Assembly: GCF_964340395.1 (NCBI RefSeq)
Contig: NC_135566.1
Coordinates: forward strand, 7,988,001 to 8,052,000
Length of the DNA: 64,000 bases
From: Glandiceps talaboti
Lineage: Eukaryota > Hemichordata > Enteropneusta > Spengelidae
Reading direction: 5' to 3'
Shown here: in pieces, positions 25,801 to 31,800 of the stretch
Position numbering within the stretch: position 1 is the first letter of the stretch
Layout of the letters: the number at the start of each line of letters is the position of its first letter
Translations under genes and position numbers: made by a program
The notes under the pieces: generated by a model
The model's input: the letters and a program-made list of their open reading frames with translations, nothing else
What the model was told of the DNA's origin: nothing
Databases searched by the model: none

Positions 25801-28800
25801 TGCCTTACACGATGAGTTGATCGATGAAATCAACAATCTCACAACATGGTTTCACTCCAACTCTCTCAAACCCAACATTTCTAAATACCAATTCATGTTA
25901 CTTGGCACTCGTCAACAATTGCAGAAAATACCAGATCACATTAAAACCCTCTCTACTCGCGATCATGTTATTCAGGCAACCACCAGTGCGACTTGTTTGG
26001 GTCTTAGACTTGACCCTGAACTCCATAAAACCATATAGCCTACCTCCGTCGAGCTTGTGGTTATCGACTTATTACCCTGGCTAGAGCAAGACGTTGTATT
26101 CCTGAAAAAATTCGCAAGAATATCATCACAGCTACAGTTTTCTCACTCCTGGACTACTGTGACACTGTTTATTCAAACTGTAGTATCACATTAAAATGCA
26201 GCTTGCAACGTATAATTAATTTCGCTGTCCGCATCCAATGTGGGCTAAAGAAGTCTGAACATGTCACTACCGCCAGACTTAGACTTGATTGGCCAACCAT
26301 TCAAGAGCGACATAACCACAACTTCAATAAACTTGTCAAAAAATGTATTATTAACAAAGTACCATCGTACCTTTCTGAACTTATTTCTACCAATGATATG
26401 TTTCATCAATACAATACAAGGACCAAATTCCACATTCCGAAAGCCCACTTTCGTTCCTTCAGATACAGGGCATCCATCGCTAGTTCATAAATTTAATGCC
26501 CTTTGCACTCTTTCCTCAAGATGGTCATTATTGTACAGTGCTTAAATTTTGTGTCTGTTATGTATATTTGTATTTTAAATCTGTATTGTATTTGTTTTAT
26601 CTTGCATTTGCATGAAAAGCCATTTAATGGATGCATTGCCGTTTATAAATAAATAATAATAAAAAAAAAAATCGAGAGGTCATTTCCAGCAACCATGGAA
26701 TGTGATGCTACTCTAAAATAGAGCTAGAAAAATTGGCAAAGCTGGTTCAGAGAAACCTACTGTACACTGGTGCAAGGCATCATGGGAAGTATACATTTAG
26801 GAGTTTCATGTAAATATTTCACACAGTCACAATAAAAATTGTGCGGTATGATTTCTATGGAAATTTGCCGTTTTAGATAAACATATGTAATAATATTAAC
26901 AGAACTCCATGCCATGTGAGGGCCAGTGTATGCTCATGAAAGTATGGCGCACTCATGCAAATACCCCGAGTACACCACACTTGTACTCACATGTCATGGG
27001 GTTCTGACATATGATTACTTTTCTGATTCAACATCCCTAATTGTGCACGGCATGTCTATAACTGTATTTTTTGGTTTTGTTTGAAGTTGTCTGTGTTTAT
27101 ATATAAAAATGTCATGTCTCATCAGAAAAACACCGTACCAACTTTGTCTGTGTTGTAATTTACATATCAATTCTCTCTTTCTATCCACAGTTGCTTTGAA
27201 GTCAGTTAGTGGTGGTTTTCTAGTGTGGCACCTCGTCTTGATTATTTCCTTCGTTTTAGCTTTGGTTGTTTTCTTTACATCAAAGCATGAGAAACAACCA
27301 ATCTATCACCCAGTAAGTAATGTATAAATCTATCACCCAGTAAGTAATGTATAAATCTATCACCCAGTAAGTAATGTATAAATCTATCACCCAGTAAGTA
27401 ATGTATAAATCTATCACCCAGTAAGTAATGTATAAATCTATCACCCAGTAAGTAATGTATAAATCTATCAACCAGTAAGTAATGTATAAATCTATCACCC
27501 AGTAAGTAATGTATAAATCTATCACCCAGTAAGTAACGTATAAATCTATCACCCAGTAAGTAACGTATAAATCTATCACCCAGTAAGTAACGTATAAATC
27601 TATCACCCAGTAAGTAACGTATAAATCTATCACCCAGTAAGTAATGTATAAATCTATCACCCAGTAAGTAATGTATAAATCTATCACCCAGTAAGTAATG
27701 TATAAATCTATCACCCAGTAAGTAATGTATAAATCTATCACCCAGTAAGTAATGTATAAATCTATCACCCAGTAAGTAATGTATAAATCTATCACCCAGT
27801 AAGTAATCTATAAATCTATCACCCAGTAAGTAATCTATAAATCTATCACCCAGTAAGTAATCTATAAATCTATCACCCAGTAAGTAATCTATAAATCTAT
27901 CACCCAGTAAGTAATCTATAAATCTATCACCCAGTAAGTAATCTATAAATCTATCACCCAGTAAGTAATGTATAAATCTATCACCCAGTAAGTAATGTAT
28001 AAATCTATCACCCAGTAAGTAATGTATAAATCTATCACCCAGTAAGTAATGTATAAATCTATCACCCAGTAAGTAATGTATAAATCTATCACCCAGTAAG
28101 TAATGTATAAATCTATCACCCAGTAAGTAATGTATAAATCTATCACCCAGTAAGTAATGTATAAATCTATCACCCAGTAAGCAATGTATAAATCTATCAC
28201 CCAGTAAGTAATGTATAAATCTATCACCCAGTAAGTAATGTATAAATCTATCACCCAGTAAGTAATGTATAAATCTATCACCCAGTAAGTAATGTATAAA
28301 TCTATCACCCAGTAAGTAATGTATAAATCTATCACCCAGTAAGTAATGTATAAATCTATCACCCAGTAAGTAATGTATAAATCTATCACCCAGTAAGTAA
28401 TGTATAAATCTATCACCCAGTAAGTATTGTATAAATCTATCACCCAGTAAGTAATGTATAAATCTATCACCCAGTAAGTAATGTATAAATCTATCACCCA
28501 GTAAGTAATGTATAAATCTATCACCCAGTAAGTAATGTATAAATCTATCACCCAGTAAGTAATGTATAAATCTATCACCCAGTAAGTAATGTATAAATCT
28601 ATCACCCAGTAAGTAATGTATAAATCTATCACCCAGTAAGTAATGTATAAATCTATCACCCAGTAAGTAATGTATAAATCTATCACCCAGTAAGTAATGT
28701 ATAAATCTATCACCCAGTAAGTAATGTATAAATCTATCACCCAGTAAGTAATGTATAAATCTATCACCCAGTAAGTAATGTATAAATCTATCACCCAGTA

Positions 28801-31800
28801 AGTAATGTATAAATCTATCACCCAGTAAGTAACGTATAAATCTATCACCCAGTAAGTAACGTATAAATCTATCACCCAGTAAGTAACGTATAAATCTATC
28901 ACCCAGTAAGTAACGTATAAATCTATCACCCAGTAAGTAACGTATAAATCTATCACCCAGTAAGTAACGTATAAATCTATCACCCAGTAAGTAATGTATA
29001 AATCTATCACCCAGTAAGTAATGTATAAATCTATCACCCAGTAAGTAATGTATAAATCTATCACCCAGTAAGTAATGTATAAATCTATCACCCAGTAAGT
29101 AATGTATAAATCTATCACCCAGTAAGTAATGTATAAATCTATCACCCAGTAAGTAATCTATAAATCTATCACCCAGTAAGTAATCTATAAATCTATCACC
29201 CAGTAAGTAATCTATAAATCTATCACCCAGTAAGTAATGTATAAATCTATCACCCAGTAAGTAATGTATAAATCTATCACCCAGTAAGTAATGTATAAAT
29301 CTATCACCCAGTAAGTAATGTATAAATCTATCACCCAGTAAGTAATGTATAAATCTATCACCCAGTAAGTAATGTATAAATCTATCACCCAGTAAGTAAT
29401 GTATAAATCTATCACCCAGTAAGTAATGTATAAATCTATCACCCAGTAAGTAATGTATAAATCTATCACCCAGTAAGTAATGTATAAATCTATCACCCAG
29501 TAAGTAACGTATAAATCTATCAACCAGTAAGTAACGTATAAATCTATCAACCAGTAAGTAACGTATAAATCTATCAACCAGTAAGTAACGTATAAATCTA
29601 TCACCCAGTAAGTAACGTATAAATCTATCACCCAGTAAGTAACGTATAAATCTATCACCCAGTAAGTAACGTATAAATCTATCACCCAGTAAGTAATGTA
29701 TAAATCTATCACCCAGTAAGTAATGTATAAATCTATCACCCAGTAAGTAATGTATAAATCTATCACCCAGTAAGTAATGTATAAATCTATCACCCAGTAA
29801 GTAATGTATAAATCTATCACCCAGTAAGTAATGTATAAATCTATCACCCAGTAAGTAATCTATAAATCTATCACCCAGTAAGTAATCTATAAATCTATCA
29901 CCCAGTAAGTAATGTATAAATCTATCACCCAGTAAGTAATCTATAAATCTATCACCCAGTAAGTAATCTATAAATCTATCACCCAGTAAGTAATGTATAA
30001 ATCTATTACCCAGTAAGTAATCTATAAATCTATCACCCAGTAAGTAATCTATAAATCTATCACCCAGTAAGTAATGTATAAATCTATCACCCAGTAAGTA
30101 ATGTATAAATCTATCACCCAGTAAGTAATGTATAAATCTATCACCCAGTAAGTAATGTATAAATCTATCACCCAGTAAGTAATGTATAAATCTATCACCC
30201 AGTAAGTAATGTATAAATCTATCACCCAGTAAGTAATGTATAAATCTATCACCCAGTAAGTAATGTATAAATCTATCACCCAGTAAGTAATGTATAAATC
30301 TATCACCCAGTAAGTAATGTATAAATCTATCACCCAGTAAGTAATGTATAAATCTATCACCCAGTAAGTATTGTATAAATCTATCACCCAGTAAGTAATG
30401 TATAAATCTATCACCCAGTAAGTAATGTATAAATCTATCACCCAGTAAGTAATGTATAAATCTATCACCCAGTAAGTAATGTATAAATCTATCACCCAGT
30501 AAGTAATGTATAAATCTATCACCCAGTAAGTAATGTATAAATCTATCACCCAGTAAGTAATGTATAAATCTATCACCCAGTAAGTAATGTATAAATCTAT
30601 CACCCAGTAAGTAATGTATAAATCTATCACCCAGTAAGTAATGTATAAATCTATCACCCAGTAAGTAATGTATAAATCTATCACCCAGTAAGTAATGTAT
30701 AAATCTATCACCCAGTAAGTAATGTATAAATCTATCACCCAGTAAGTAATGTATAAATCTATCACCCAGTAAGTAATGTATAAATCTATCACCCAGTAAG
30801 TAATGTATAAATCTATCACCCAGTAAGTAATGTATAAATCTATCACCCAGTAAGTAATGTATAAATCTATCACCCAGTAAGTAATGTATAAATCTATCAC
30901 CCAGTAAGTAATGTATAAATCTATCACCCAGTAAGTAATGTATAAATCTATCACCCAGTAAGTATTGTATAAATCTATCACCCAGTAAGTAATGTATAAA
31001 TCTATCACCCAGTAAGTAATGTATAAATCTATCACCCAGTAAGTAATCTATAAATCTATCACCCAGTAAGTAATCTATAAATCTATCACCCAGTAAGTAA
31101 TGTATAAATCTATCACCCAGTAAGTAATGTATAAATCTATCACCCAGTAAGTAATGTATAAATCTATCACCCAGTAAGTAATGTATAAATCTATCACCCA
31201 GTAAGTAATGTATAAATCTATCACCCAGTAAGTAATGTATAAATCTATCACCCAGTAAGTAATGCATATACAATACATATATAGTTAGTTTTATATTGCT
31301 GTTTCAACTTCAAGGTCTTACAGATCAAAAAACAACTTAAACAACAAATGTGCTTCAAGAACAGATATCCATTGCTGAATAAATTCAGACCTACAACATA
31401 TTGTGATGTGTTAAAAAGCTGTTATTACGCAAAAATATGAATATTTTGAGTTTTTTGTCAGATGTTCTCTGGAAATGTTAAATTTACAAACATTTCATTG
31501 GGTAAAACACTGTCATGGTAAACAGTTTCTATGTGGGTTTGATAAACTGAGATCTGGGCAGCTCAAATGATTAGCCATTGAATGTGGCTAAATGCTAATC
31601 TGAATGTTATGTAAGTGTTAGTTCTTCGTTCTCATTGTCAAAATACAAATTTTTGCCTTTTTATCATCTTTGGTTTTGTATCAGACCCACCCCCGACCCT
31701 GATGAATCTTTGTATCTTTGTAAAAACCCAACTCATTTCCTGCCTGTTTTCTTCTAGGTGTTTGCATATCTTGGTTTTGTTGTGGCTGTACTGTGGATTT

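Follow-up and report, generated by a model that had tools for sequence, protein, structure and literature searches.

We analysed a 64,000-nucleotide stretch of the genome of the enteropneust Glandiceps talaboti (contig NC_135566.1, positions 7,988,001 to 8,052,000 of the forward strand; hereafter the window), in which the 5' splice site of coding exon 12 of an NCLX exchanger gene is repeated in tandem, one copy after the other, 147 times. The array is a real and extreme donor-spanning minisatellite of an arrangement that has already been described in human genes. Our favoured explanation, to which we give a probability of about three in four, is that a minisatellite (variable number tandem repeat, VNTR) was born on a working splice donor, that the first donor is still the one used in splicing, and that the array is tolerated rather than selected.

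Anatomy of the array

Tandem Repeats Finder placed the array at 27300-31268 of the window with a period of 27, 147.0 copies, 99% matches and 0% indels, and cutting it by script gave 147 consecutive 27-mers without any length change. This confirmed the copy number and the constant unit length claimed in an earlier note on this DNA; the coordinates given in that note, 27301..31269, describe the same array but begin one base later, the phase of such a repeat being arbitrary. Of the 27 bp of the unit, 13 are the end of exon 12 and 14 the beginning of intron 12. The consensus, AATCTATCACCCAGTAAGTAATGTATA, is found in 107 of the 147 copies while the other 40 are variants of 8 further types, and the only unit to depart from the donor heptamer GTAAGTA, at 28164, reads GTAAGCA. 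The features on which the argument depends are the following (a slash marks the exon-intron boundary).

27300..31268, forward strand: array of 147 x 27 bp, consensus AATCTATCACCCA/GTAAGTAATGTATA, GTAAGTA in 146/147 units
13814..34614, forward strand: NCLX coding region with 17 coding exons (exon model, Pfam PF01699)
27191..27312, forward strand: coding exon 12, 122 nt, ending in ...HEKQPIYHP; unit 1 takes its exonic part from the last 13 nt
27313..27319, forward strand: donor of unit 1, GTAAGTA, which yields the annotated protein (protein match, homology, U1 duplex of -7.2 kcal/mol)
27313..31757, forward strand: intron 12, 4445 bp, of which 3956 bp are array
31758..31835, forward strand: coding exon 13, 78 nt or 26 codons, in frame, the next exon after the array

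When the unit was searched for in the whole assembly of 590,416,875 bases with up to two mismatches, it was matched 147 times on the forward strand, which is the number of units in the array, and 0 times on the reverse strand, and a mirrored control gave 0 matches as well; the listing gives some 100 of the 147 positions, all of them inside the array. A chance match was thus ruled out, since the count in the genome equals the count in the 64-kb window. The array has the tens to hundreds of near-identical, head-to-tail units (147 x 27 bp) that mark a donor-spanning VNTR of the ABCA7 or IFI6 kind, and it holds an authentic coding-exon donor inside the unit, as judged by annotation and homology.

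Rfam gave 0 matches across the window at gathering scores. Folding of the array RNA was weak (-3.9 kcal/mol for 8 units and -11.6 for 20), and these folds gave no sign that RNA structure masks the donors. Recursive splicing was considered and rejected, on inspection only: the CAG of the unit overlaps the GT (CAGTAAGT) instead of forming AG/GT, and splicing there regenerates no donor.

Unit 1 as the annotated donor of exon 12

The host gene encodes an NCLX (SLC8B1-type) exchanger. With the joined exons as query, 1399 homologs were obtained at E <=0.001 among 7992 candidates scored. The best of them was the NCBI Glandiceps talaboti protein named mitochondrial sodium/calcium exchanger protein-like (P0001), whose 689 aa are reproduced letter for letter by the 17-exon model, in which the exon number 12 assigned in the earlier note is correct. 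Pfam PF01699 (Na_Ca_ex) matched the protein in two stretches (6.3e-52), and the gene has both the Na_Ca_ex domains and the full-length homology of a member of the NCLX / SLC8B1 family. Intron 4 of the gene (17709-20087) has AT-AC ends and U12-type signals: it starts with ATATCCTT, carries TTCCTTAAC near its end and ends in AC.

Annotation and homology agree that unit 1 is the genuine exon 12 donor, as had been proposed. When CACCCA, ending at 27312, is spliced in silico to the exon that starts at 31758, the translation reads QPIYHP-VFAYLGF, identical to the NCBI protein. We aligned 40 of the 120 listed homologs over this junction, including the NCBI protein itself, to which the other 39 are 40 to 71% identical; residues 518-545 were ungapped in 40/40 rows, and a P-x-Y-H motif stood at the junction in 31 of them. 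The 13 exonic nucleotides of the unit encode I-Y-H of this motif, from which it follows that the exon was the source and that the copies in the intron are derived, in agreement with the earlier proposal.

Later donors have a different outcome. Those tested (donors 2, 3, 10 and 147) all give PIYHPVSNV followed by a stop, after residue 532, which bears out the in-frame TAA after VSNV that had been predicted for them. Between this premature stop and the last exon junction lie 312 to 4227 nt, and by the usual rule messages from later donors would be open to nonsense-mediated decay (NMD). With donor n, exon 12 measures 122 + 27(n-1) nt.

The fit of the unit to the U1 small nuclear RNA, also part of the earlier account, holds at positions +1 to +7, which pair, but not at -1 (A) and -2 (C), which do not. 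The duplex of -7.2 kcal/mol is in the middle of the range of the 15 GT donors of the gene that were scored (-2.3 to -12.7 kcal/mol; 8 stronger and 6 weaker).

Upstream in the window lies a second exchanger gene (matches from 1148 to 11156), in which the homologous place was found.

7582..8147, forward strand: homologous exon-intron-exon of the paralog, donor CTA/GTAAGTC with its GT at 7699

With the frames aligned by eye, the intron of the paralog is at the matching place and in phase 0, with one codon more at the junction, and it is without a donor array; we count this for the favoured explanation. As separate observations, (TGAC)12, a TTGA run and (GTT)18 stand directly after the donor in this paralog intron (7726-7955), and P0087 is a further Glandiceps exchanger paralog, distinct from the one in the window.

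Growth of the array and its genomic background

The variants of the unit comprise seven substitutions distributed in 17 runs. Adjacent pairs of identical variants numbered 22, compared with a mean of 3.0 and a maximum of 10 in 5000 shuffles. Clustering of variants in blocks is a mark of slippage or unequal exchange, and this block structure looks like natural array turnover; the high identity of the units suggests recent growth or homogenisation. The 27-bp piece (13 nt of exon 12 end and 14 nt of intron start) would first have been duplicated, and the duplicate would then have expanded into intron 12 by slippage or unequal exchange. By coordinate arithmetic, the intron would measure 503 bp without its 146 extra units.

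As background, 17 contigs were sampled in nineteen stretches of 10 kb, with 187,500 called bases in all, which held 74 arrays of period 10 or more. Two of the 19 stretches contained, between them, three arrays in which a 24-28-bp unit is repeated at least 80 times, and on this sample large minisatellites of 24-28 bp are common in the Glandiceps talaboti genome. Triples of GTAAGT at spacings of 15-45 were then counted genome-wide: 16,853 on the forward and 16,907 on the reverse strand (33,760), compared with 20,156 and 17,937 (38,093) for the mirrored motif, where both counts include overlapping matches within one array and are not numbers of arrays. Donor-like arrays showed no clear genome-wide excess over this control, which is a rough one, since the ratio of GTAAGT to mirrored motif is 0.89 for triples and 0.78 for single motifs.

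The GTAAGT-triple matches listed reach 2.93 Mb on one contig (C1) and make up 12 arrays, of which a simple GTAA repeat was dropped and the starts of the other 11 were read. Among the matches listed, two of the 11 (L029 and L037) start at a clear predicted exon end. Four (L030, L033, L038 and L041) show, ahead of the first donor, a short open frame with a weak acceptor, and their status is undecided, and five (L028, whose start was judged by eye only, L032, L034, L035 and L036) do not start at an exon end. The two clear cases are:

555-963 of L029: array of 50 bp x 8.2, which starts in a predicted exon end and repeats GTAAGT into the intron
2510-2695 of L040: array of 27 bp x 7.1 (the L037/L040 array), which starts in a predicted exon end and repeats GTAAGT into the intron

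Like the 147-copy array, both begin at a predicted exon end, but with far fewer copies. The L037 exon gave an ARM_LRRK2 Pfam match of 1.2e-5, just below the cut-off. No Pfam match above the cut-off was obtained for the L029 exon, whose status as an exon rests on reading frame and splice signals, and 457 aa of its predicted exons retrieved no homologs, perhaps because the search covers proteins of similar length only. In the window, at least 7 of the 45 GTAAGT hexamers outside the array are donors of the two exchanger genes. Two exon-end starts in 11 are close to this donor share and are, in these small numbers, what random seeding on GTAAGT sites would be expected to give.

Comparison with known donor-spanning repeats

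The earlier note knew of no described case, a claim that does not stand: the human ABCA7 intron-18 VNTR (PMC5954066) and a minisatellite of the human 6-16/IFI6 gene reported in 1995, which we know from citations, are of this kind. According to the ABCA7 report (De Roeck et al. 2018, PMC5954066), its 25-bp unit is present in about 12 to 427 copies and the first two bases of the repeat are the GT of the exon-18 donor. Three new splice events are described there: a cryptic acceptor is used, one unit is retained, or exon 19 is skipped. One-unit retention amounts to 2 +/- 1% in RNA, a figure that we assign by the word order of the text, and is independent of array length. Skipping of exon 19 rises with VNTR length, by 3.2-fold when the cell line with the smallest allele sum is compared with the one with the largest, and longer VNTRs go with lower expression. 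Cycloheximide raises the transcripts that carry premature stops, and expanded alleles are enriched in Alzheimer patients (PMC5954066).

The two arrays are alike in that the repeat begins at an authentic coding-exon donor, the units are of similar size and the copies run from tens to hundreds; in both, a message that retains one unit runs into a premature stop (as predicted for Glandiceps), and the next exon (44 codons in ABCA7) is in frame if skipped. They differ in that the ABCA7 repeat starts at the GT whereas the Glandiceps unit includes 13 exonic nt, in that 25 bp shift the frame whereas 27 bp keep it but carry a TAA of their own, and in that the human unit is C-rich and the Glandiceps unit AT-rich. 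Length polymorphism and RNA forms are known for ABCA7, whereas the Glandiceps array is known from the sequence of one assembly.

The IFI6 minisatellite with multiple donors is attributed to Turri, Cuin and Porter (1995, Nucleic Acids Res 23:1854) as cited elsewhere, and in the part of a later paper that mentions it, two downstream repeat units are reportedly used as donors, resulting in three mRNA species (PMC4526556). The likeness is that units of a minisatellite can serve as alternative donors, which for Glandiceps is a prediction. The IFI6 unit reportedly has 12 bp and about 26 copies, and the donors used are reported to add amino acids without a stop. The Glandiceps array is unlike IFI6 in its 147 copies and in the stop that follows after four codons.

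Consequences for splicing and points against the favoured explanation

Under the favoured explanation, donor 1 would do nearly all of the splicing because it is the only donor that closes an exon of normal size (122 nt). A few percent of splicing would probably go through donors 2 and 3, and the resulting message would be truncated and prone to NMD. One-unit retention and length-dependent skipping of the next exon in ABCA7 may serve as a model for the RNA effects of the array: exon 13 is predicted to be at risk of skipping, which would preserve the frame, and the long array may promote this skipping, just as longer repeats do with exon 19 of ABCA7. We infer donor use, NMD, exon 13 skipping and the neutrality of the array from these comparisons. 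With 147 near-identical donors in register after a single exon, the locus is a natural test of how a 5' splice site is chosen from many that are alike; should donor 1 prevail, exon definition would outweigh both number and proximity. The array is also an invertebrate parallel to the human ABCA7 VNTR, and with further such arrays in a small part of the genome the rate and the tolerance of donor amplification become measurable.

Several points weigh against this explanation. It is from annotation and homology that donor 1 is taken to be the one used, and homology may also be what the NCBI model was built on. In classical duplication experiments the intron-proximal one among identical donors was reportedly preferred, which would favour the last unit rather than the first. 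The donor heptamer holds one of the 17 variant runs (binomial P 0.04), which could hint at constraint; we did not take this as evidence for selection on the heptamer because the runs are not independent, and counted by variant types it holds one of seven (P 0.42). The mirrored control was not matched in frequency, with 241 TGAATG compared with 188 GTAAGT in the sample. Lastly, were all four undecided arrays to begin at exons, 6/11 would exceed chance, and donors might seed arrays.

Alternative explanations

The functional ideas raised in the earlier note (a U1 landing zone, a buffer of output or a block to polyadenylation) are suggestions from sequence. In the form of an active U1 snRNP (small nuclear ribonucleoprotein) platform, which would keep the intron or gene from being cleaved and polyadenylated too early or would buffer output through the share of message lost to NMD, they seem to us unlikely. 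The dense U1-complementary sites that such a protective element should have are present: 146/147 units pair at +1 to +7, and sites of unit strength or better reach 36.8/kb in the array compared with 1.23/kb outside it on the same strand. The weak polyadenylation-like hexamer TATAAA occurs 146 times, once at each unit junction, AATAAA and ATTAAA are absent from the array, and several U1 can bind competing donors, according to two reports (PMC3826338, PMC5861446). Nevertheless, GTAAGT triples are not in excess over the rough mirrored control, the paralog intron does without an array, large arrays of 24-28-bp units are common in the genome, which speaks against a special role for this one, and in ABCA7 longer VNTRs accompany lower expression (PMC5954066). 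A bolder proposal, unlikely though in our view a little less so, is that Glandiceps carries many donor-spanning arrays, perhaps hundreds, of which the 147-donor array would be the extreme: a natural U1 platform under a strict first-donor rule that still yields correct protein. The length of the array would then determine how much exchanger is made, be it by skipping of exon 13, by retention of units or by U1 shielding of the intron.

We regard as very improbable a regulated poison-exon switch, in which exchanger level would be controlled by the choice between unit 1 and a later donor. As such a switch would have it, donors 2, 3, 10 and 147 all lead to an early stop at one and the same place, after residue 532, but this TAA lies in the way of any in-frame extension into intron 12 and calls for no selection, and unit retention in ABCA7 is independent of array length (PMC5954066). 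That misassembly inflated the copy number of a shorter array is improbable too, if not to quite the same degree: long, near-identical arrays are prone to assembly error, but the exact 27-bp register throughout, the block-structured variants and the similar large arrays at other loci argue for the array as assembled. A protein-coding repeat on the other strand is hardly credible. On the reverse strand, 1342 codons (27275-31303) can be read without a stop, but long parts of the array are open in another reverse frame as well, which is expected where a 9-codon unit is free of stops by chance, and from these open frames we judged the long one a by-product of a 27-bp unit that happens to lack a stop in that frame.

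Other features around the array

Reverse-transcriptase-like open frames, recognised by eye from the translation, occupy 24431-26490 in intron 11, directly upstream of exon 12, and probably belong to a LINE (long interspersed nuclear element). The last intron of the NCLX gene contains a pure (TC)154 run (33783-34090), and an array of 61 bp x 7.9 (35044-35527) lies directly 3' of the coding region. Farther downstream, a sulfotransferase-like open frame of 384 aa, also identified by eye, is found on the + strand at 52601-53755.

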